From NCBI RefSeq assembly GCF_029889905.1, contig NZ_JARANZ010000005.1:1-64000 (forward strand): a stretch of DNA of 64,000 nt. The letters are read 5' to 3'. Positions within the stretch are counted from its first letter, which is position 1; the number at the start of each line of letters is the position of its first letter. This DNA is from Chromohalobacter sp. 11-W (GTDB lineage Bacteria > Pseudomonadota > Gammaproteobacteria > Pseudomonadales > Halomonadaceae). The position numbers and the translations under genes were made by a program. Positions 38,881-48,934 of the stretch are shown in pieces. Below the pieces are notes generated by a model. That model was given only the letters and a program-made list of their open reading frames with translations, ran no database searches and was not told the DNA's origin.

Positions 38881-39777
38881 ATGGATACACAAAGTCTGCA
38901 AGCCTTCCTCGCCGTGGCCGACAATGGCTCATTTTCGCTCGCCGCGGAACAGCTCCACTTGACCCAGCCTGCGGTCAGCAAGCGTATCGCAGGACTCGAA
39001 ACTCAAGTCGACGCGCAGTTATTCGACCGTATCAACCGCCGCGTGACGCTCACCGAGGCAGGACGCACCTTATTGCCTCGCGCCCGCGAGATTCTGGTGA
39101 TGTTCGACGATAGCCGTCGCGCGCTTTCCAACCTCGCCGGCGACGTCAGCGGCAGCTTGACCATGGCGACCAGCCATCATGTCGGCCTGCATCGCCTGCC
39201 GCCGCTGCTTAAGGCCTACACCCAGGCGCATCCCGAGGTGCGCATGGACATGCGCTTTATGGATTCCGAGCAAGCCTATCAGGGTGTACTGGACGGCGAA
39301 CTGGAACTCGCCGTGGTCACGCTAGCGCCAGTGCCCGACCCAGCGCTGACGGTCGTACCGGTGTGGATCGACCAGTTGCGTTTCGTGTGCGGGCGCGAGC
39401 ATGCCCTCGCCGGGCGCGAGGAACTCGCCTTATCGGCGCTGTCCGATTACGACGCCGTACTACCGGGGCACTTGACCTTCACACGCGGCATCGTGGTGGA
39501 TACCTTCGCCCGCGACGGACTCAAGGTAAACGTCTCGCTATCCACCAACTACCTCGAGACACTCAAGATGATGGTCGCCATCGGGCTAGGCTGGAGCGTG
39601 CTGCCTGAAACCATGATCGACGACGACATCGAGATCCTGCCCATCGACCACCGCCCCATCCAGCGTCCGCTGGGCTATCTGTTTCACAAGAGCCGCACCC
39701 TCTCCAATGCTGCACGCGCCATGCTCGGCATGCTCGATGATGCCCAGGATAAGACCGCTCAAGGTTGGTCGTCATGA
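38881..39777 (+). CDS. LysR-type regulator divergent from leuC
   Basis: 298-residue LysR protein. The helix-turn-helix LTQPAVSKRIAGLETQVDAQ is followed by an effector domain that includes TMATSHHVGLHRLPPLL. Pseudomonas has a related LysR gene divergent from leuC, so regulation of leucine synthesis is the likely job. The ribosome site is weak (AGAG). The 222-base divergent region is AT-rich near 38815-38865 and should hold both promoters. Confidence 0.88.
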   Translation: MDTQSLQAFLAVADNGSFSLAAEQLHLTQPAVSKRIAGLETQVDAQLFDRINRRVTLTEAGRTLLPRAREILVMFDDSRRALSNLAGDVSGSLTMATSHHVGLHRLPPLLKAYTQAHPEVRMDMRFMDSEQAYQGVLDGELELAVVTLAPVPDPALTVVPVWIDQLRFVCGREHALAGREELALSALSDYDAVLPGHLTFTRGIVVDTFARDGLKVNVSLSTNYLETLKMMVAIGLGWSVLPETMIDDDIEILPIDHRPIQRPLGYLFHKSRTLSNAARAMLGMLDDAQDKTAQGWSS

Positions 39778-39836: not shown

Positions 39837-39986
39837 CGTCATCCATATTTGATCTATAGCGACACAAAAACGCCGTTTACTATCAACTCGACGGATACGT
39901 CATGTCAGAAAACATCATGTAGCCTTCTCGGTACCGCCTTAGCCTTGTGCCAGACCAACGACACAAACGCTTGCATGAGGCAGGAC

Positions 39987-41153
39987 ATGACTAATACGAC
40001 TTTCCAAGCGTGGGCGGACCAGCCTGCGGAAAAGGCGCTAACGCTTCCTTCACGCTACTTCTTCGACCCGCAACTCTTCGCCGCCGAACGCGATCGCATT
40101 TTCATGGGCGCTTGGCACTTCGCCTGCCATGTCAATGAGGTGGCCGAGCCCGGTGCTTTCGTGGTGCGTGAGATCTTCGATCAGAGCGTGATCGTGATAC
40201 GTGATCGCCAAGGCGACTTGCACGCATTTCATAATGTCTGTCAGCACCGTGGCAACCGTCTGCTCAACGAGACGCGAGGCGTTCAGAAAGGTGTTATTCG
40301 TTGTGCCTACCACTCCTGGTGCTACGGGCTGGACGGCAGCCTGCGCGCCGCGCCGCGCAGTGACCGGATTGCAGCCTTCAATGTTGATGATTATCACATC
40401 CCGCCAGTACGCCTGGAAGTCTTCGCCGGGTGCGTCTACTTCAATCTCGATCCCAATGCCGCCGACATGCAGACACTCTTCCCTGGCGCAGAGACTGCCA
40501 TTCGCGAGGCAATTCCGGACCTGGACGACATGCAGCTGATCCAGGAAGACGACGTCATCATCCCCGCCAACTGGAAAGTGATCATGGATAACTCCATTGA
40601 GGGCTATCACTTCCAGCTTTCTGGGCCCCATCACGTCGATCTAGCTGCCTTAATCGATTTCGATGGCTACCGCCTGACCCATCATGACAACTGGTGGACC
40701 TATGGCGCACCACCTAATGCCAGCGCCGAGGAAGCTTACGGCGTGCCGCTGGACCGCCCGGTCGGCAACGGCGACGGTTTTTTCAACATCGGCATCTGGC
40801 CGCATAACACCTTCTACCAGTTTCCGTTCTCGCAGTGCATGGGCACTTTCATGATCATCCCGCTGGATGCCGAGCGTTCGATTCTGCGCTTCGGGTATTA
40901 CACCCCGCACGACACGCTGCCAGAGGTGACCAAGGCCAGCATGCGTTGGATGAACGAAGAGCTCGGCCCCGAGGATATCGAACTCAATATCAGCGTGCAG
41001 AAAGGCCTCCACTCCCTGGGCTACGACCAGGGGCGCTACATGATCGATGCCGCGCGCAGCAATGAAAGCGAGCATCTGGTGCTTCACTTCCATCGTTTGG
41101 TGTTCCAGGCCTTGCACGGCGATGCCACCGCACGTCAGGAGACGCCAGCATGA
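39987..41153 (+). CDS. Rieske non-heme iron oxygenase, alpha subunit
   Basis: 388-residue oxygenase of the choline monooxygenase/GbcA/CntA-like ring-hydroxylating family. The Rieske cluster ligands are Cys85 and His87 (NVCQHRGN) and Cys106 and His109 (RCAYHSW). The catalytic iron site is in MDNSIEGYHFQLSGPHH (about 200-216). Members demethylate or cleave C-N bonds of quaternary amines such as glycine betaine or carnitine. The ATG at 39987 follows GAGGCAGG. Its reductase is probably the gene at 44646. It heads an eight-gene plus-strand cluster. The exact substrate is unknown. Confidence 0.9.
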   Translation: MTNTTFQAWADQPAEKALTLPSRYFFDPQLFAAERDRIFMGAWHFACHVNEVAEPGAFVVREIFDQSVIVIRDRQGDLHAFHNVCQHRGNRLLNETRGVQKGVIRCAYHSWCYGLDGSLRAAPRSDRIAAFNVDDYHIPPVRLEVFAGCVYFNLDPNAADMQTLFPGAETAIREAIPDLDDMQLIQEDDVIIPANWKVIMDNSIEGYHFQLSGPHHVDLAALIDFDGYRLTHHDNWWTYGAPPNASAEEAYGVPLDRPVGNGDGFFNIGIWPHNTFYQFPFSQCMGTFMIIPLDAERSILRFGYYTPHDTLPEVTKASMRWMNEELGPEDIELNISVQKGLHSLGYDQGRYMIDAARSNESEHLVLHFHRLVFQALHGDATARQETPA

Positions 41154-41917
41154 CATTCACCGGTCAACGCGTGCTGGTGACCGGCGGTGCCCGTGGCATC
41201 GGCGCCGCCACCGCACGACGCTTCCTGGAACAGGGCGCGAACGTCGCCATCGGCGCCCGTCACCAATCGTCCATCGACGCATTTCGCGACGCGCTGACGG
41301 ATACCGAACTTGCCACGTCCACAGTGGAAGCCGCCGTCGGCGAGATCGGCACCCAGGCCGAATGCCAGGCAGTCGTAGAGACTGCCGTCGAGCGCCTTGG
41401 AGGGCTCGACATCCTGGTCAATTGCGCCGGCGTCTTCGAAGAGGTGCCTTTCGAGGCGGTTACCCAGGCGCATTGGGATACCACCTTCCGCGTCAACGTC
41501 GGCGGCACGTTCTTCTGCATCCAAGCAGCGCTACCGCACCTCGAGTCCAGTGGCGGCAATGTCGTCAATCTGGGCTCGGATGCCGGGCTGATTGGCTTTC
41601 CGCCAAGCAGCGTCTATTCCGGTGCCAAGGCCGCCGTGGTCAACCTGACCCGCGCCCTGGCCTTGGAGCTCGCTGGTCGCATACGCCTTAACTGCGTATG
41701 CCCGGGCAATGTCGAGACCGACATGATCCAACACGCCGCCGAGACTAGCGACGACCCACGCGCCTACCGAGACGCCGCCCATCGACGTGCACCCTTGAAG
41801 CGCATGGGGCAACCGCAAGAGATCGCCGATGCCGTGCTTTATCTCGCCTCCCCCCAAGCCGGCTTCACACATGGCGCCATTCTGTCCGTGGACGGTGGTG
41901 GCGTATGCGGCTTTTAA
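41150..41917 (+). CDS. Short-chain dehydrogenase/reductase
   Basis: 255-residue classical SDR. It has the NAD(P) loop TGGARGIG, NCAG, and catalytic Tyr and Lys in YSGAKAAVVNLTR, and ends with HGAILSVDGGGVCGF. The ATG overlaps the Rieske gene stop (ATGA), showing tight coupling. It probably oxidises a hydroxyl group of the substrate or an intermediate. The specific reaction cannot be deduced. Confidence 0.9.
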   Translation: MTFTGQRVLVTGGARGIGAATARRFLEQGANVAIGARHQSSIDAFRDALTDTELATSTVEAAVGEIGTQAECQAVVETAVERLGGLDILVNCAGVFEEVPFEAVTQAHWDTTFRVNVGGTFFCIQAALPHLESSGGNVVNLGSDAGLIGFPPSSVYSGAKAAVVNLTRALALELAGRIRLNCVCPGNVETDMIQHAAETSDDPRAYRDAAHRRAPLKRMGQPQEIADAVLYLASPQAGFTHGAILSVDGGGVCGF

Positions 41918-41979
41918 GCACTACGTATCGCGCCCTCCGCACGCACAACGACAACATCAGACTTAACGAGGATATTCCC

Positions 41980-42939
41980 ATGACCGATACGCTCCCACAC
42001 CGTGCCCGGAATGGCCGCCTGATGAGTGCTCTCATCGGCGGTGCCATGGGCGCGTTGCTGCTCACGCCCTTCAGCCTCGCCCAAGCCGAGACCGACGTGG
42101 TTCGCTTCGGCACACCACAGTGGCCCGGCGCCACCGTCAAGTCGGAAGTGGCACGGCAGCTCCTGGACACGCTGGGTTATAACACCACGCTGAGGGAAGC
42201 CAGTTCGTCGATCATTTTGGAAGGCATGTCGAGTGGCGATCTCGACATCAACATGGCGCTCTGGCGGCCTTCACAAAGCGGCATGCTCGACCCCCGCCTG
42301 GCAGCTGGTGAGCTGGTCGAAGTCGTCAAGAATATCGACGGCGCACGCTTTAAGCTCGCGGTACCCGAATATGTGTGGGATGCCGGCGTGCACTCGATGG
42401 CCGATCTCGCCGAACACGCGGAACGCTTCGATCACACCTTCTACGGCATTGAGCCGGGCAATGTCGGCAACGAATTGATGCAAAAGGCCATCGACGACGG
42501 CACCTACGACCTGAGCGACTGGCGAGTCGCTGCCTCTAGCGAGACCGGCATGATGTCGCAGGTCGAAAGCGATATTCGCAATGACCAATGGATCGCCTTC
42601 CTGGGCTGGGAACCACACTGGATGAATGTCGACTTCGACATTCGCTATCTCAAGGACCCCGAAAACCTCTGGGGCGACGCCAGCTCGGTCTCCTCAGTAG
42701 TCGCCAGCGATTTCGCCGAGCACCATCCCAACGTCATCACCTTTCTCGAAAACATGATCGTGCCCATCGAGGTGCAGGACCAATGGGTCTACGCCTACAG
42801 CCGTGAGGATCAATCACTGGAAGATGTCGCCGCTGACTGGATCCAGTCGCATCCCGAGCGGGTCAACGCCTGGCTCGAAGGTGTCACCACAGCGGATGGC
42901 GACACGCGTGCGCAAGACGCCTATCAGGCCACGCGTTGA
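41980..42939 (+). CDS. OpuAC-type betaine/choline/carnitine-binding protein
   Basis: 319-residue periplasmic protein with a signal peptide (basic ARNGRL, hydrophobic LIGGAMGALLLTPF, cleavage after AQA). Aromatic residues that form the cation box for quaternary amines are likely in GTPQWPG, MALWRPS and FLGWEPHWMN. No permease or ATPase gene is nearby. In Pseudomonas the similar stand-alone proteins CaiX and BetX share a common transporter core. GAGGATA precedes the ATG. This supports a quaternary ammonium substrate for the cluster. Confidence 0.9.
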   Translation: MTDTLPHRARNGRLMSALIGGAMGALLLTPFSLAQAETDVVRFGTPQWPGATVKSEVARQLLDTLGYNTTLREASSSIILEGMSSGDLDINMALWRPSQSGMLDPRLAAGELVEVVKNIDGARFKLAVPEYVWDAGVHSMADLAEHAERFDHTFYGIEPGNVGNELMQKAIDDGTYDLSDWRVAASSETGMMSQVESDIRNDQWIAFLGWEPHWMNVDFDIRYLKDPENLWGDASSVSSVVASDFAEHHPNVITFLENMIVPIEVQDQWVYAYSREDQSLEDVAADWIQSHPERVNAWLEGVTTADGDTRAQDAYQATR

Positions 42940-42968
42940 CCTTTCGACCTTCGCCTCAGGATGCTTGC

Positions 42969-44633
42969 ATGACGGCTAACCAAGATTACGATTACATCAT
43001 CGTCGGGGCAGGCTCGGCCGGCTGCGTGCTGGCAGACCGACTCACCGCCGATGGCGAATCACGCGTATTACTGCTCGAAGCCGGGCCTCGCGATCGCTCG
43101 TGGACCATCGACATGCCCGCTGCCATGGGGGCAGCCATCGACGGCCCGCACTTCAACTGGCATTACTGGTCGGGCCCCGAACCCTATCTCGACGCACGCC
43201 GCATCGCTACACCTCGCGGGCGTACACTGGGCGGCTCGTCATCGATCAATGGCATGGTGTACATCCGTGGCCACGCCCGCGATTACAATGCCTGGGAAGA
43301 CGCCGGCTGCCACGGCTGGGGCTACCGGCACGTTTTGCCCTACTTTCGCCGCGCCGAAACCCACGAACTGGGCGCCGATGCCTATCATGGCGACACGGGA
43401 CCTCTGCATGTCAGTGCCGGTCGCCCCGAGGATCCTCTGGCGAAAGCCTTCCTGGCCGCCGGTGAAGAGGCTGGTTATGCCGCCAGCGACGATCTCAACG
43501 GCTATCGTCAGGAAGGCTTCGGTCGCGTCGACCGCACGACCCGTGCGGGTAAGCGTTGGAGTACGGCGCGCGGCTATCTGGCGCGTGCCGAAAAGCGCGC
43601 CAACCTGACGGTCATCACCCACGCGCTGGCGCACCGCGTGCTCGTCGGCGAAACCGGCGCCGAGGGCATCGAATATCACCACGCCGGGGCGCTGCAACAG
43701 GCAATGGCGACCCGAGAGGTCATCCTCGCAGGTGGCGCCATCAACAGTCCCCAGTTGTTGATGCTCTCCGGCATCGGCCCCGACGACGAACTATCTCGCT
43801 GGGGCATTCATCGGGTACACACGCTCGATGGCGTGGGCCGTCGCCTCAGCGATCATCCCGACACAGTCGTGGCATACCGTTGCCGCCGGCCGGTCTCGCA
43901 TGCGCTATGGACCCACGCTCCCCGCAAGTGGTGGCTGGGCATGCGCTGGTTCCTCGACCGGCGCGGCCTCGCGGCGAGCAACCAGTTCGACGCCGGCGCC
44001 TTCATCCGCTCGCGGGCGGGGGTAGAGCATCCCGACATCCAGTTGACGTTCATGTCTCTGGCCATCGCGCCCGGCACCACCGAAAGCCTGCGCGAGCATG
44101 CGTTCCAGGTGCACATCGACTTGATGCGCCCCACGAGCATGGGCCGCTTACGCCTCGGGAGCGCGGACCCCGCACAGGCGCCGGAGATCGTCTTCAACTA
44201 CCTGGCCACCGAGCGCGATCGCGCCGACATGCGCGCGGCCGTGCGTCGGGTCAGGGAACTGGTCGAACAGCCGGCATTCGCGGAGTTGCGGGGCGAGGAA
44301 ATCTCCCCCGGTGCCGACTGCCAGAGCGATGAGGCGCTAGATGCCTGGGCGCGCGCCACCACCGAAACCGGCTATCACGCCGCCGGCACCTGCAAGATGG
44401 GCCCGGCCGACGATCCAGAGGCTGTGGTCGATCCTGAGCTTCGCGTGCATGGCCTCGACGGCTTGCGCGTGGTCGATGCTTCGATCATGCCCCGCGTGGT
44501 CAGCGGCAATACCAATGCGCCGACCGTCATGATCGCCGAAAAGGCCAGCGACATGATCCTCGGCCACGCGCCGCCGGCTCCCTCGGATGCTCCCTTCTGG
44601 CTGCATGACGACTGGCAACACCAGCAACGTTGA
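42969..44633 (+). CDS. GMC-family flavin alcohol dehydrogenase (BetA-like)
   Basis: 554-residue FAD enzyme the size of choline dehydrogenase (556 in E. coli). The FAD loop YIIVGAGSAGCVLADRL is at the N-terminus, and GGSSSINGMVYIRGHARDYNAW is GMC signature 1. The catalytic His is in TGYHAAGTCKMG near 470. It oxidises a primary alcohol to the aldehyde, passing electrons to the chain or oxygen. AGGA precedes the ATG. It is probably not the true betA, because no betI or betB with the usual order is present. Confidence 0.91.
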   Translation: MTANQDYDYIIVGAGSAGCVLADRLTADGESRVLLLEAGPRDRSWTIDMPAAMGAAIDGPHFNWHYWSGPEPYLDARRIATPRGRTLGGSSSINGMVYIRGHARDYNAWEDAGCHGWGYRHVLPYFRRAETHELGADAYHGDTGPLHVSAGRPEDPLAKAFLAAGEEAGYAASDDLNGYRQEGFGRVDRTTRAGKRWSTARGYLARAEKRANLTVITHALAHRVLVGETGAEGIEYHHAGALQQAMATREVILAGGAINSPQLLMLSGIGPDDELSRWGIHRVHTLDGVGRRLSDHPDTVVAYRCRRPVSHALWTHAPRKWWLGMRWFLDRRGLAASNQFDAGAFIRSRAGVEHPDIQLTFMSLAIAPGTTESLREHAFQVHIDLMRPTSMGRLRLGSADPAQAPEIVFNYLATERDRADMRAAVRRVRELVEQPAFAELRGEEISPGADCQSDEALDAWARATTETGYHAAGTCKMGPADDPEAVVDPELRVHGLDGLRVVDASIMPRVVSGNTNAPTVMIAEKASDMILGHAPPAPSDAPFWLHDDWQHQQR

Positions 44634-44645
44634 GGAGGACATGCC

Positions 44646-45599
44646 ATGACCGCGACACCATTCGACGTCGTGATCGAGAGCCACCAGCGGCTATCGAGCG
44701 CTATCTACCAGATCGACTTGGTCGCCGCCGATGGCGCCGTCCTGCCACCTGCTCCGGCGGGCGCTCATCTCGAGGTGCACCTCCTCAATGGTCTGATACG
44801 TCACTACTCGCTGCTGGACGACGCGCGTCACGGCCGCTATCGCATCGGCGTGCTGCATGACCCAGTGTCCCGCGGGGGATCCGCCTTTCTGGCCGAGCAG
44901 GCAAGCGTCGGCACGCGGCTAAGCGTTTCCCCGCCCCAGGATCGCTTTCCCCTCGCCGACGACCGGCAGCACTACCGACTGATCGGGGGCGGGATCGGTA
45001 TCACGCCGCTCGTCGCCATGGCGCGCCGACTCGTCGAGCGGGGCGATACGGTCGAGGTCCATTATCTGGTGCGCCACCGGGACGAGGCGGCATTCCTCGA
45101 CGAACTCCGCGCGTTCCTGCCCGCATCGCAGTTGCACCTGCACGCCTCCGCCACGCAGGGAAGACTCGCCCCGCATGCGCTACTGGGCGACTACACGCCG
45201 GACACCGGCGTCTATGCCTGCGGCCCCGAAAGCCTGCTGGACGCCTTGACCGAAGCAACTCAAGAGTGGCCTCAGGGAGCGCTACAGATGGAACGCTTCC
45301 GGGGCGCATCGCAAGCACCAGCAGCGCGCACCACGCCTTGCCGAATCGAGCTCGCGCGCAGCGACAAGCAGTTCACGCTCGCCGAGGACGAAACCCTGCT
45401 CGATGGCTTGGCACGCGCCGGGGCGGCGCCGGACAGCCTATGCTGCGAAGGCGCCTGCGGCACTTGTGGTATTCCCGTGCTCGAAGGCGAAGTCGAGCAT
45501 CGCGACGTTCTCCAGTCCGATGCCGAAAAAGCTGCCAACGACATCATTTACGTCTGCGTTTCGCGTCCCCAGGGAGAGCGGCTGGTGCTCGACCTGTGA
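44646..45599 (+). CDS. Ferredoxin-NAD(P)H reductase component of the Rieske oxygenase
   Basis: 317-residue phthalate dioxygenase reductase-type protein: FMN/FAD beta-barrel (RHYSLLDD), NAD domain (LIGGGIGITPLVAMARRL, YACGPESLLDAL) and a C-terminal 2Fe-2S ferredoxin with cysteines in CCEGACGTCG and IYVCVS. It resembles GbcB and CntB, which serve GbcA and CntA. GAGGAGG precedes the ATG. An ATG five bases earlier opens only a two-codon frame. Confidence 0.91.
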   Translation: MTATPFDVVIESHQRLSSAIYQIDLVAADGAVLPPAPAGAHLEVHLLNGLIRHYSLLDDARHGRYRIGVLHDPVSRGGSAFLAEQASVGTRLSVSPPQDRFPLADDRQHYRLIGGGIGITPLVAMARRLVERGDTVEVHYLVRHRDEAAFLDELRAFLPASQLHLHASATQGRLAPHALLGDYTPDTGVYACGPESLLDALTEATQEWPQGALQMERFRGASQAPAARTTPCRIELARSDKQFTLAEDETLLDGLARAGAAPDSLCCEGACGTCGIPVLEGEVEHRDVLQSDAEKAANDIIYVCVSRPQGERLVLDL

Positions 45600-45658
45600 A
45601 AACAGCGCGCCAGCGCGAGCGCTTTCTACACTCATTCGACAATCACCAAGGTATGGTT

Positions 45659-47158
45659 ATGTCTTCCTCTCCTATGCCCACCGCCCACGCCGACTGGCAA
45701 CACCGTGCCGCCACCCTCTCGCTGGATGGCGCCGCCTATATCGACGGTCACCGCTACGCGACACGTCAGGGCGAGTCGTTCGAATCGATCAACCCCATGA
45801 CGGGCGCTTCACTGACGACGATCGCGGCTTGCAACACGTCGGATATCGATGACGCTGTCGATGCAGCGCGCCGGGCATTCGACACCGGCGACTGGTCACA
45901 TGCCGAGCCGACGACGCGTCGCCGGTGCTTGCAGGCGCTCGCCGCTCAGGTTCGCGATCACGCCGAGGAATTGGCCCTGCTCGACAGTCTGGAGGTCGGT
46001 AAGTGCATCCACGAAGCCCTGGACGATGTCGAGGAAGCGGCCTTGCTCTTCGACTGGTTCGGCGAGCTACAGGACAAATGCTACGACCAGCTCGCGCCCA
46101 GCCCCAATCACGTACAGGCCACGGTGGCCCACGAGCCTCTCGGCGTCGCCGCCGCCGTAGTACCGTGGAACTTTCCCTTGCACAACGCGGCGGTGAAACT
46201 GGCGCCCGCGCTGGCCGCCGGCAATAGCGTGGTGCTCAAGCCTGCCGAGGAATCGTCGCTCTCCGCGCTGCGCCTGGCAGAACTCGCGACCCAGGCCGGC
46301 CTCCCGCCCGGTGTGCTCAATGTCGTGCCGGGATACGGGCATATCGCCGGCGAAGCGCTGGGCCGTCATGAGGATGTCGACGCGCTCGGCTTCACCGGCT
46401 CCACCGAGATCGGCAAGCGCTTTCTGGTCTACTCGGGCGAATCCAACATGAAACCCGTGTGGCTGGAATGCGGCGGCAAGAGCCCGCATCTGGTGTTCGA
46501 CGATTGCCCCGACCTGGATGCCGCCGTGGACAACGCCGTGGCCGGCATCTTCACCAATGCCGGCCAGGTATGCTCGGCGCATTCGCGCCTGTTGCTGCAA
46601 GACGGTATCGCCGAGCGTTTTCTCGAGGCCTTGCAGGCACGCATCGCGACACTCGTGCCGGGAGATCCGCTTGACCCGGCGACGACGCTCGGCCCGCTCG
46701 TCAGCCAGGCGCAGTTCGACAAGGTCCGCGACTACCTGGCGGTTGGCAAGCGCGAAGCCACGCTGTTAAGCGGCGGCGAGACGCTGCAGGCAGCAGGCGG
46801 CGCCTTGTTCGTCGCCCCTACGGTGTTCACCGATGTCGAACCGCATCACCGGCTCTTCCAGGAAGAAATTTTCGGCCCCGTGCTCAGCGTGACGCGCTTC
46901 AACGACGAGCGCCAGGGCGTGACATTGGCCAATGCCAGCCAGTATGGTTTAGCAGCGTCTCTCTGGACCGCCGACCTGGGACGCGCCCATCGCCTTTGCG
47001 ATGCTCTGCAGGCTGGCACCGTGACGGTCAATGGCGTCGATGCCGTCAGCCCGCAGACGCCTTTCGGCGGCATGAAGCAATCCGGCATAGGCCGCGACTA
47101 CGCACTGGCCGGCATGCACAAGTACATGGCGCTCAAGACGCGCTGGATCCACTATTGA
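45659..47158 (+). CDS. NAD(P)-dependent aldehyde dehydrogenase
   Basis: 499-residue class I/II ALDH, similar to gamma-glutamyl-aminobutyraldehyde and betaine aldehyde dehydrogenases. It has VVPWNFPLHNAAVKLAPALA, GFTGSTEIGKRF, the general base Glu in LECGGKSPHLV (usual LELGGKSP), and catalytic Cys near 304 (NAGQVCSAHS). AAGG lies 7 bases before the ATG at 45659. It would oxidise the aldehyde made by the GMC enzyme. Confidence 0.92.
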   Translation: MSSSPMPTAHADWQHRAATLSLDGAAYIDGHRYATRQGESFESINPMTGASLTTIAACNTSDIDDAVDAARRAFDTGDWSHAEPTTRRRCLQALAAQVRDHAEELALLDSLEVGKCIHEALDDVEEAALLFDWFGELQDKCYDQLAPSPNHVQATVAHEPLGVAAAVVPWNFPLHNAAVKLAPALAAGNSVVLKPAEESSLSALRLAELATQAGLPPGVLNVVPGYGHIAGEALGRHEDVDALGFTGSTEIGKRFLVYSGESNMKPVWLECGGKSPHLVFDDCPDLDAAVDNAVAGIFTNAGQVCSAHSRLLLQDGIAERFLEALQARIATLVPGDPLDPATTLGPLVSQAQFDKVRDYLAVGKREATLLSGGETLQAAGGALFVAPTVFTDVEPHHRLFQEEIFGPVLSVTRFNDERQGVTLANASQYGLAASLWTADLGRAHRLCDALQAGTVTVNGVDAVSPQTPFGGMKQSGIGRDYALAGMHKYMALKTRWIHY

Positions 47159-47193
47159 TGGCCTCGGTTTCGCCATCGCCACAGGAGCGTTAC

Positions 47194-47928
47194 ATGACGA
47201 CCGCTACCGAGCTTCCCGGCACTCCCCGCGAACAACTGGCTTGCGCGTTCCGCTGGCTGGCCCGCCTCGACATGCACGAAGGGGTCGCCAATCATTGCAG
47301 CCTGGCCACCCAGGCGGATGGCAAGCGCTTTCTGGTCAATCCCGAAGGACGCCATTTCGCGGAAATGCGTGCCAGCGATCTCGTCGAGGTGGATGCCAGC
47401 GCCGCGCAACGCCCCGAGTCCATCGACCCCACCGCCTGGGCAATCCATGGCGCCATGCATCGTCAGGGCCGCGGCGTGGGATGCGTGATGCATGCCCACT
47501 CGCTCTACGCCACCGCCCTGGCCTGTCTGGAGATGCCGGAGCTACCCCCGGTGGAACAGAACGCCATGCGCTTCTTCGAGCGGGTGCATGTCGATGCCGG
47601 ATTCGATGGCATGGGGCTCGACGAGGAAGCGGAACGCCTCGGTAAGCTGGCCGGCACGGCACCGATCCTCCTGCTCGGCAATCATGGCGTGGTCGCCACC
47701 GGCCGGGACGTCGCCGAAGCCTTCGACCACCTCTACTACTTCGAGCGTGCCTGCCGCTCCTATCTGGTGGCCCGTGCCAGCGGCCTTCCCGTGCGTCCCG
47801 TCGCGCCCGAGATCGCGCGCAAGACCGCCCAGCAATGGGAGGACTATCTGGCGCAAGGCTCGGCGCACATGCATCTTGCCGCCTTGATGCGCCTACTCGA
47901 CCGCGATGCCCCCGATTACCGTGATTGA
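47194..47928 (+). CDS. Class II aldolase/adducin family protein
   Basis: 244-residue protein of the fuculose-phosphate aldolase/ribulose-phosphate epimerase fold. The zinc ligands are likely the His residues in HAHSLYATAL and LGNHGVVATG; ANHCSLA is also conserved. Non-phosphorylated members include decarboxylases and carbon-carbon lyases. It could cleave the carbon skeleton left after oxidation. AGGAG precedes the ATG. It overlaps the regulator gene by 23 bases. Confidence 0.85.
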   Translation: MTTATELPGTPREQLACAFRWLARLDMHEGVANHCSLATQADGKRFLVNPEGRHFAEMRASDLVEVDASAAQRPESIDPTAWAIHGAMHRQGRGVGCVMHAHSLYATALACLEMPELPPVEQNAMRFFERVHVDAGFDGMGLDEEAERLGKLAGTAPILLLGNHGVVATGRDVAEAFDHLYYFERACRSYLVARASGLPVRPVAPEIARKTAQQWEDYLAQGSAHMHLAALMRLLDRDAPDYRD

Positions 47929-48934
47929 CACACGGCGTCCGACGCACGGGCCGGAGCGCATCGCGATCCTGCTGATGCCGCAGTTTTCCTTTGCCGGCCT
48001 GGGGGCGATGCTGGATCCGCTGTTCATCGTCAACTGGCTGACCCAGGAGTCGCGCTTCAAGTGGCAGTTGCTGGGCAGCGATGCCACGGTCGCCGCCTCC
48101 AACGGCGTCCCCCTAAACGTGGACACCGAGTGGCCGGAACCGACCGACCTGGATAGCGTGTTCGTCCTCGCCAGTTTCGAAACGAAGACGTATACCGGCG
48201 ACAAACGCATCGCCACGTGGCTTCGCCAGTGTGCGGCGGCCGGCGTGGCGTTGGGCGGCATCGAGATGGGCAGCGAAGTGCTGGCCGCGGCGGGTGTGTT
48301 CGACGATCATCAGGTGGCTGTGCACTGGGATAACCTGGAAGGCTTTCGCGAGCTTTATCCGCGCATCCAGGCCACCAGCGATCTCTATCGCATCGCGGGC
48401 CAGCGGCTGAGCTGCGCCGGCGGTACCGCCGTGCTCGACATGATGTTCGCCTGGCTCACTCCGCGCGTGGAACCTCCCTACATGGAAGAGTTGCGCAATC
48501 ACTTGCTGGAACGCCGCCAACGGCGCGATGACAGCGAACAGTTGTCGGCGGCGCCCGAACACCATGTCGAGACCTCGGCGCAGTTACGCAAGGTGATTCG
48601 CACCATGCGCCGCACCCTGGAGACGCCGCTCTCGGCACCGGCGCTGGCCGCCCTCGTCGGGCTCTCGCCGCGTCAGCTGGAGCGGCGCTTCAAGGCCGAA
48701 CTCGGTGTCACGCCAATTCGTTACTATCTATGGCTGCGCATCAATCGCGCGCATCGACTACTGCAGCAAACTGACCTGAGCGTGGCAGAGGTCGCCAGTT
48801 GCGCCGGTTTCGGCTCCCTGGAGCATTTCTCCCGTGCCTACCGTCGCTTCTTCGGCTGCGCGCCCAGCGACGACCGCCTGCAATCGCGAGACGCACCGGT
48901 GGTTCCTGTGCGCCTTTTTCCCGTCAAGCGCTGA
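47906..48934 (+). CDS. GlxA/GbdR-type AraC-family regulator
   Basis: 342 residues: an N-terminal DJ-1/PfpI-like amidotransferase domain (about 18-185) with no evident catalytic function, and a C-terminal double helix-turn-helix AraC domain (about 235-330, SAPALAALVGLSPRQLERRF and EVASCAGFGSLEHFSRAYRRFFG). GbdR, CdhR and SouR, sensors of glycine betaine, carnitine and sarcosine, have this layout. It is the last gene of the cluster and probably its activator. The start has no clear ribosome site. Confidence 0.9.
   Translation: MPPITVIDTRRPTHGPERIAILLMPQFSFAGLGAMLDPLFIVNWLTQESRFKWQLLGSDATVAASNGVPLNVDTEWPEPTDLDSVFVLASFETKTYTGDKRIATWLRQCAAAGVALGGIEMGSEVLAAAGVFDDHQVAVHWDNLEGFRELYPRIQATSDLYRIAGQRLSCAGGTAVLDMMFAWLTPRVEPPYMEELRNHLLERRQRRDDSEQLSAAPEHHVETSAQLRKVIRTMRRTLETPLSAPALAALVGLSPRQLERRFKAELGVTPIRYYLWLRINRAHRLLQQTDLSVAEVASCAGFGSLEHFSRAYRRFFGCAPSDDRLQSRDAPVVPVRLFPVKR

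Follow-up and report, generated by a model that had tools for sequence, protein, structure and literature searches.

A conserved gene cluster with a distinct Rieske oxygenase in Chromohalobacter sp. 11-W: a candidate module for catabolism of a choline-like quaternary-ammonium alcohol

The window analyzed here is the first 64 kb (positions 1 to 64,000) of the 318,640-bp contig NZ_JARANZ010000005.1 of Chromohalobacter sp. 11-W, whose genome comprises 3.66 Mb. It holds eight adjoining genes preceded by an inverted repeat, which are assessed below as a conserved, uncharacterized catabolic module with a new subgroup of Rieske oxygenases. The features are as follows (coordinates include stop codons; start codons were picked by eye and by script):

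39849–39886, no strand assigned: 38-bp imperfect inverted repeat, TTGAT...ATCAA with a GCGAC/CGCC core, which probably serves the cluster regulator as its operator.
39987–41153, plus strand: Rieske mononuclear-iron oxygenase, CntA-like, in a clade of its own with Ser at CntA position 203 (sequence and fold matches, alignment, tree).
41150–41917, plus strand: dehydrogenase of the short-chain dehydrogenase/reductase (SDR) family, accessory (family search, distribution over loci).
41980–42939, plus strand: OpuAC/ChoX-like substrate-binding protein, in a cluster without a permease or ATPase of its own (family search, alignment with ChoX).
42969–44633, plus strand: GMC flavoprotein of the choline-dehydrogenase subfamily, 47% identical to E. 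coli BetA (family search, alignment).
44646–45599, plus strand: reductase of the phthalate-dioxygenase-reductase (PDR) type, carrying a [2Fe-2S] domain at its C-terminus and probably working with the Rieske protein (family search).
45659–47158, plus strand: aldehyde dehydrogenase (ALDH), PuuC/KauB-like (family search).
47194–47928, plus strand: class-II-aldolase-fold protein (PRK07490) with a three-His metal site and no catalytic Glu, the nearest characterized structures being NovR and TqaM (family, PDB profile, Foldseek).
47906–48934, plus strand: AraC-family regulator, GbdR-like, with relatives annotated as GlxA family (236 bits on the GbdR model NF052371, below its cut-off of 480).

All eight frames are open, run in one direction and are tightly packed, with successive gaps of −4, 62, 29, 12, 59, 35 and −23 bp, as the original prediction of eight close or overlapping genes had it. 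Its family assignments also agree with the family searches (Rieske and Ring_hydroxyl_A, SDR, OpuAC of the ChoX-like type, GMC, PDR-type reductase, ALDH, Aldolase_II and a GbdR-like AraC regulator). The sequence GAGG stands six bases before the Rieske ATG at 39987. No transporter gene is found among the eight. The cluster is flanked by a LysR gene on one side and by phaC, on the opposite strand, on the other. The LysR gene (38881–39777) was considered as a further member and rejected, because it is found in all 10 genomes of the genus that were searched, including three without the Rieske gene.

Public genomes were scanned with the Rieske protein, and the best 80 of 102 confirmed stretches gave 77 distinct loci; together with two plasmid loci (L081 and L082) these form the scored set of 79. 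A relative was counted if at least 70% of the query was covered with no stop in the aligned stretch. Relatives of the GMC protein are present in 77 loci, of the Rieske protein and the regulator in 74 each and of the aldolase-fold protein in 73, an association beyond chance. The binding protein is represented in 47 loci, the ALDH in 42, the reductase in 23, the SDR in 22 and the LysR protein in 19, some of the SDR, ALDH and LysR rows being distant matches (25–40%) that need not be partners. Two loci on metagenome-assembled genomes (MAGs; L074 and L075, Rieske identity 53% and 52%) hold just the Rieske, GMC, aldolase-fold and regulator genes in 21 kb; these four are therefore called the core, while the presence of the ALDH, the binding protein, the reductase and the SDR depends on the lineage. 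The predicted unit of eight genes thus stands as a co-occurring core, the full set being lineage-specific.

The cluster recurs in Halomonadaceae, in Pseudomonas (many soil strains) and in Burkholderiaceae. The closest named loci among the matches listed are five Chromohalobacter records with Rieske identities of 91–96%, and an orthologue is present in 7 of the 10 genomes searched in the genus. Among 398 genomes of the phylum, an orthologue of at least 55% identity occurs in four, the own genome included; 15 further listed matches are 29–39% identical, and none of the 13 whose surroundings (10–14 kb each) were inspected has a GMC or aldolase-fold neighbor. A six-gene version (Rieske, GMC, regulator, aldolase-fold protein, ALDH and binding protein) lies on plasmid pF045_1 of a P. 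aeruginosa cystic-fibrosis isolate (NZ_CP115240.1; L082, 11959–19302), with mercury-resistance genes and a transposase of the Tn3 family only a few kb away.

The closest solved relative of the Rieske protein, by sequence (224 bits, about 35% identity) and by fold, is the carnitine monooxygenase CntA. In a tree of 34 rows, the 12 rows of the cluster type form one clade (support 100/100), separate from both the CntA-type clade (7 rows, 100/100) and the GbcA/Stc2 clade (3 rows, 100/99); the order between these clades is not certain, since the program flags long branches. The residues of the [2Fe-2S] motif CxH...CxxH and of the 2-His-1-Asp iron site (C85, H87, C106, H109, H208, H216 and D330) are invariant in a 22-row alignment. 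The pocket was compared in 75 rows, namely the window and 74 of the 79 loci; the motif recurs in the five loci that were dropped because a stop interrupts their aligned stretch. Both the iron ligands and the bridging Glu typical of group V Rieske oxygenases (CntA Glu205) are invariant in all 75 rows, and CntA position 203 is Ser in every one of them. A section of PMC7948474 describes this position as a signature, with Tyr or Phe in group Va (CntA, choline and benzalkonium type) and Asn in group Vb (GbcA/BmoA and Stc2), so the cluster type carries neither; Asn occupies it in the GbcA of the own genome, in Stc2 and in an R. etli relative. The Cys-x-x-Cys pair that part of PMC10952381 describes near the iron of some group V Rieske oxygenases is also absent, Cys206 being Gly in all rows and Cys209 being Ser or Phe depending on the alignment. 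The carnitine-contacting Tyr295 of CntA is replaced by Phe, and three residues are inserted after the first iron His. The AlphaFold model is poor at the active-site loop (residues 197–211, pLDDT under 50).

By its sequence features the cluster Rieske protein is therefore a distinct subgroup, and its reaction is not readable from CntA or GbcA. Its assignment as an orthologue of either was rejected by its score on the GbcA model (NF058607; 141 bits against a cut-off of 670), its separate clade and its different pocket residues. One genome of the same order (G309) contains the cluster (L115) alongside an operon of the CntA type (L118). Orthology to the glycine betaine or carnitine enzyme, which had been named beforehand as grounds for refuting the original prediction, accordingly did not hold. 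The own genome encodes two further Rieske proteins, read as GbcA-like and BenA-like. Elsewhere, position 203 is Tyr or Phe in further Rieske oxygenases of 29–35% identity (L121–L130), some of which have the Cys pair while others lack it. Another Rieske cluster on a plasmid of Ruegeria sp. THAF33 (L105, 4827–13068), whose Rieske protein has Phe at this position, combines it with a GlxA-type regulator, a choline-sulfatase, two SDRs, a protein of the 3-keto-5-aminohexanoate-cleavage type and an aminobutyraldehyde dehydrogenase.

The main rival reading, release of trimethylamine (TMA), starts from CntA, the nearest characterized relative, which cleaves a C–N bond and sets TMA free, as stated in part of PMC10952381. 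Homocholine or 2,3-dihydroxypropyl-trimethylammonium, both C3 quaternary alcohols, would be oxidized to the acid by the GMC protein and the ALDH. The Rieske protein would split off TMA and leave a beta-aldehydo acid, either malonate semialdehyde or tartronate semialdehyde, which the aldolase-fold protein would decarboxylate. Decarboxylases of the aldolase fold are known, and the profile of one of them, OtnC (3-oxo-tetronate 4-phosphate decarboxylase), matched weakly (40–53 bits against a cut-off of 250). However, the cluster protein retains neither Tyr203 nor Tyr295 nor the Cys pair of CntA. In addition, the dimethylamine-monooxygenase marker PF22290 reaches its cut-off nowhere in the own genome, where its only match is the cluster reductase; any TMA formed would therefore probably be waste, and its use as a source of nitrogen is made slightly less likely. 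As a sign of methylamine use, the marker (DmmA) does not track the cluster: it exceeds the cut-off in 4 of 19 cluster-bearing and in 8 of 18 cluster-free halomonads, and scores above 120 bits in two of three other genomes searched. C–N cleavage is considered possible, if doubtful.

The nature of the substrate could be approached through the GMC, ALDH and binding proteins. The GMC protein passes the PRK02106 subfamily model (759 bits against 605) and stays below the BetA equivalog TIGR01810 (662 against 732). All 78 orthologues (the window and 77 loci) share its catalytic His and Asn with BetA. The carboxylate facing the cation, which we take to align with Glu312 of choline oxidase, is Glu or Asp in 78 of 78: Asp in 17 and Glu in 2 of the 19 rows of the halomonad group, and Glu in all 59 others and in BetA. 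The window ALDH scores best on the PuuC model (569 bits, below the cut-off of 850), and the ALDH of a Pseudomonas cluster (L055) on the betaine-aldehyde-dehydrogenase model (599 bits, below 669). Identity of the window ALDH to four ALDHs of Pseudomonas and Paraburkholderia clusters is 41–43%, and it is 41% to that of L055; this low identity between the window and Pseudomonas enzymes suggests that an ALDH was recruited separately in each lineage for the same step.

The binding protein aligns with ChoX. Four residues presumed to form the choline cage (W43, W90, N156 and W205) are kept in all 48 rows. Two further presumed choline contacts, D45 and Y119, are found in every row of the Pseudomonas/Burkholderia group (31 of 31), but all 17 halomonad rows have Gly and Phe in their place, together with Trp at 209. 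The ChoX model TIGR03414 (cut-off 379) is passed by the two other versions tested (Pseudomonas L055, 473 bits; Burkholderia L065, 457 bits) and not by that of the window (272 bits). As for uptake, the own genome has 19 OpuAC matches, some being parts of one frame, and a complete operon of binding protein, permease and ATPase on contig C12; among its ChoW-like permeases one scores high (313 bits) and four more score 79–99 bits. Because so many OpuAC matches stand against a single high-scoring permease, sharing of permeases is likely. A section of PMC5806209 describes such a case, the orphan binding protein CaiX being served by the shared permease CbcWV, and by analogy the cluster protein may use a shared permease too.

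The features of the GMC protein, of the binding protein and, in Pseudomonas, of the ALDH together suggest a quaternary alcohol resembling choline. The original prediction of catabolism of a hydroxylated quaternary ammonium compound is thereby retained as far as a quaternary-ammonium alcohol is concerned. Its extra hydroxyl groups are not, since that argument leans on the SDR and on the aldolase reading, and both are weakened: the SDR covers at least 70% of its length in just 22 of 79 loci and has been lost in one halomonad, and the aldolase is considered below.

Two other substrates could be proposed from the same proteins. In a second choline/glycine betaine pathway, the substrate would be choline and the Rieske protein an alternative betaine demethylase; the choline-type binding protein and betaine-aldehyde-dehydrogenase-like ALDH of L055, the BetA-like GMC protein and the GbdR-like regulator are all consistent with it. 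Yet the own genome already has a GbcA-like Rieske protein, the cluster enzyme, far below the GbcA model cut-off, lies outside the GbcA/Stc2 clade and lacks Asn203, and the known choline route needs no aldolase-fold enzyme, so that this pathway appears improbable. Alternatively, the substrate could be free of nitrogen (for example, dimethylsulfonium or another onium alcohol), the binding and GMC proteins having been borrowed from choline metabolism. The non-aromatic position 203 and the altered halomonad binding pocket would suit such a compound, but the cation-cage residues and the GMC carboxylate are kept, and the closest Rieske relatives use quaternary amines; a non-nitrogen substrate is very hard to credit.

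The aldolase-fold protein was predicted originally to be a class II aldolase cleaving the carbon chain, a reading that is not supported in the sense of a retro-aldolase. The three metal-binding His (H100, H102 and H164) are kept in 74 of 74 rows, and the position of the catalytic Glu73 of FucA, checked against the E. coli enzyme, is Ala in all 74. In a PDB profile search, 3ocr (128 bits), NovR (123 bits), 4xxf (100 bits), TqaM (85–89 bits) and adducins (79–86 bits) precede a FucA (63 bits), pyruvic oxime dioxygenases (53–61 bits) and E. coli FucA (about 44 bits). The AlphaFold model (pLDDT 92) gives a similar order in Foldseek, namely NovR, 3ocr, TqaM, 4xxf and pyruvic oxime dioxygenase, with canonical FucA later. 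NovR and CloR are three-His iron enzymes that use O2 for oxidative decarboxylation of 2-oxo and 2-hydroxy acids, according to a section of PMC13111500. Because NovR and TqaM are the nearest characterized structures by profile and predicted fold and the catalytic Glu is absent, the protein is more probably an iron oxygenase/decarboxylase of the NovR/TqaM branch than a retro-aldolase, and oxidative decarboxylation is the likelier reaction. Retro-aldol cleavage was rejected as the default reading by the Ala at the Glu73 position and by the ranking of NovR over E. coli FucA.

Transcription could be controlled through the 38-bp repeat, which ends 100 bases before the Rieske ATG and in which 9 of 19 positions pair. 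Since the repeat patterns were chosen after the sequences had been viewed and the loci are related, the counts are neither independent nor blind: TTGAT-N24-30-ATCAA has 70 sites in 1.59 Mb (79 loci and the window) against 1 in one mononucleotide shuffle, and its GC-cored version 43 against 0. Of the 43 cored sites, 37 are located no more than 300 bp ahead of the Rieske gene. They are spread over 37 sequences from several genera, namely that of the window and those of 36 of the 79 loci; the remaining 43 of the 80 sequences have no exact cored site in this interval. In the own genome, the outer pattern has nine sites (a control pattern, one), and by eye only that at 39849–39886 has the core. The first half-site pattern, CGC-N4-6-ATCAA, occurs in 53 of 78 upstream regions, not including the window's own, compared with a mean of 1.25 and a maximum of 5 in 200 shuffles and with 167 of 4993 other pieces of the same loci. 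Loose half-sites also precede the aldolase/ALDH genes in 24 of 26 loci with that pair (background, 132 of 1982 pieces). A search for direct repeats upstream of the Rieske gene gave nothing clear. The 38-bp repeat is the probable operator of the cluster regulator.

On balance, and by a narrow measure, the cluster is best read as a module, switched on by induction, for the catabolism of a quaternary-ammonium alcohol resembling choline, in which oxygenation is combined with chain shortening. Uptake would begin with capture of the substrate by the orphan binding protein, which would deliver it to a shared ABC permease of the betaine type, following the example of CaiX and CbcWV. The GMC protein and the ALDH would then convert the alcohol into an ammonio-acid in the manner of BetA and BetB, and the Rieske protein with its reductase could hydroxylate the chain or cleave the C–N bond. 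The carboxyl carbon would be removed by the aldolase-fold protein acting as a putative NovR/TqaM-like Fe(II) oxygenase/decarboxylase, and the remainder would enter glycine betaine or central metabolism. Transcription would be activated by the GbdR-like regulator, which presumably senses the substrate or a product and acts at the 38-bp site.

A more specific route of this kind, put forward tentatively and rather unlikely in its full detail, would be an aerobic alpha-oxidation with two successive oxygenases. A C3 homologue of choline would be oxidized to the ammonio-acid by the GMC protein and the ALDH, and the Rieske protein would hydroxylate it beside the carboxylate, unless the hydroxyl is already there. 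The iron enzyme would decarboxylate the resulting 2-hydroxy acid to glycine betaine and CO2, the glycine betaine being passed on to GbcAB without formation of TMA.

Several observations weigh against a single module for a choline-like alcohol. The aromatic residue by which group Va enzymes recognize ammonium is missing from the pocket of the Rieske protein, and the substrate of this protein might therefore have no trimethylammonium group close to the iron. Two presumed choline contacts are gone from the halomonad binding protein, which means that the ligand may differ between genera. Among structures, the top profile match of the aldolase-fold protein, 3ocr, is without known function, and 4xxf is annotated as a fuculose-phosphate aldolase. 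The core is not unbroken: one locus (L117, Rieske 57%) has the GMC and regulator genes and no aldolase-fold gene in 16 kb, and another (L072, 54%) has no aldolase-fold gene in 11.3 kb. Rieske genes of the same subgroup (63%) on two MAG contigs of Thiotrichaceae/Leucothrix (L069, 5549–6661; L070, 216–1328) have no cluster partner in 5.5 kb upstream (L069) or 8.6 kb downstream (L070). The cluster is also patchy in its own family, with a Rieske orthologue (at least 73% identity) in 19 of 250 genomes, the next matches being at most 36% identical over about half the length.

The aldolase-fold gene moreover outlives the rest in three halomonad genomes, and may either have a use of its own or be the last to decay. 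It is present (at least 71% identity) in all 19 Rieske-bearing genomes of the family and in three without the Rieske gene. In G025 and G041 it stands alone between the LysR gene and phaC, intact in the former and with a stop at codon 13 in the latter; in G040 it is intact next to scraps of the Rieske and ALDH genes and a broken regulator gene; and in G075 just a 25-residue scrap of it is left. It is thus the most frequent survivor in the decayed halomonad copies (L131, L132, L133 and L145: two intact, one interrupted, one scrap). G021 (L146) has lost the SDR and retains only residues 189–318 of the binding protein, the other genes being kept. We read the halomonad pattern as repeated loss of an older cluster.

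No description of the cluster was recognized in the titles and abstract beginnings of the open-access literature searched; the proteomics of homocholine breakdown in Pseudomonas sp. A9 might name these genes. Nor was the cluster recognized in the papers that came up for the candidate substrates, and the accessible part of an esterquat review contains no dihydroxypropyl compound. If the reading given here is right, the cluster would add a third subgroup of quaternary-amine Rieske oxygenases and, to our knowledge, the first case in which the NovR/TqaM iron-oxygenase fold serves to degrade an osmolyte-like compound. As many bacteria of soil and saline habitats carry the cluster, and a plasmid of P. 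aeruginosa does so too, a so far unrecognized choline analogue may be a common nutrient in these habitats. Annotations as "class II aldolase" without the catalytic Glu could then conceal oxygenases.

Among known systems, the cntAB loci of Acinetobacter, Klebsiella, Psychrobacter and Burkholderia likewise combine a Rieske protein (35–37% identity) with a PDR-type reductase and an ALDH. They differ in having their own ALDH of the succinate-semialdehyde-dehydrogenase (SSADH) type and a tartrate dehydrogenase in four loci and a BCCT transporter in three (L102, L104 and L106; not L103). The cntAB stretches compared list neither a GMC protein nor one of the aldolase fold, and their Tyr203 and Cys206/Cys209 are absent from the cluster. 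Conversely, the hallmark genes of the cnt system (BCCT transporter and SSADH-type malic-semialdehyde dehydrogenase) are not among the eight cluster genes, the ALDH of which is PuuC-like.

The gbcAB system and stachydrine demethylase (stc) share with the cluster a Rieske protein with the bridging Glu, which in these systems acts on quaternary ammonium substrates, and systems of this type are under GbdR-type regulation. In contrast to the cluster enzyme, GbcA and Stc2 have Asn at position 203 and the Cys pair and fall into a separate clade, and the stc stretches compared list no GMC or aldolase-fold partner. The E. coli betIBA-betT locus resembles the cluster in its GMC choline dehydrogenase (47% identity) and ALDH, but has no adjoining Rieske protein, aldolase-fold protein, binding protein or AraC-type regulator.

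NovR/CloR, TqaM and pyruvic oxime dioxygenase function in biosynthesis of antibiotics or fungal products or act on pyruvic oxime, and we know of no enzyme of the NovR/TqaM branch in quaternary-amine catabolism. They resemble the aldolase-fold protein in fold and profile, with 20–27% identity in Foldseek. CloR and NovR share its three-His site, there an iron site according to part of PMC13111500. At the position aligned with FucA Glu73, NovR has Ala and one TqaM has Gly.

The caiX-cdhCAB-hocS operon of P. aeruginosa, whose regulator CdhR is presumably of the same AraC/GlxA type as that of the cluster, converts carnitine into glycine betaine and, unlike the cluster, includes no oxygenase. The two are alike in that an orphan binding protein lies in the operon together with a dedicated regulator, CaiX being served by the permease CbcWV (a section of PMC5806209). 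The cluster thus differs, as had been proposed, from the cntAB, stc and bet loci compared and from caiX-cdhCAB-hocS.

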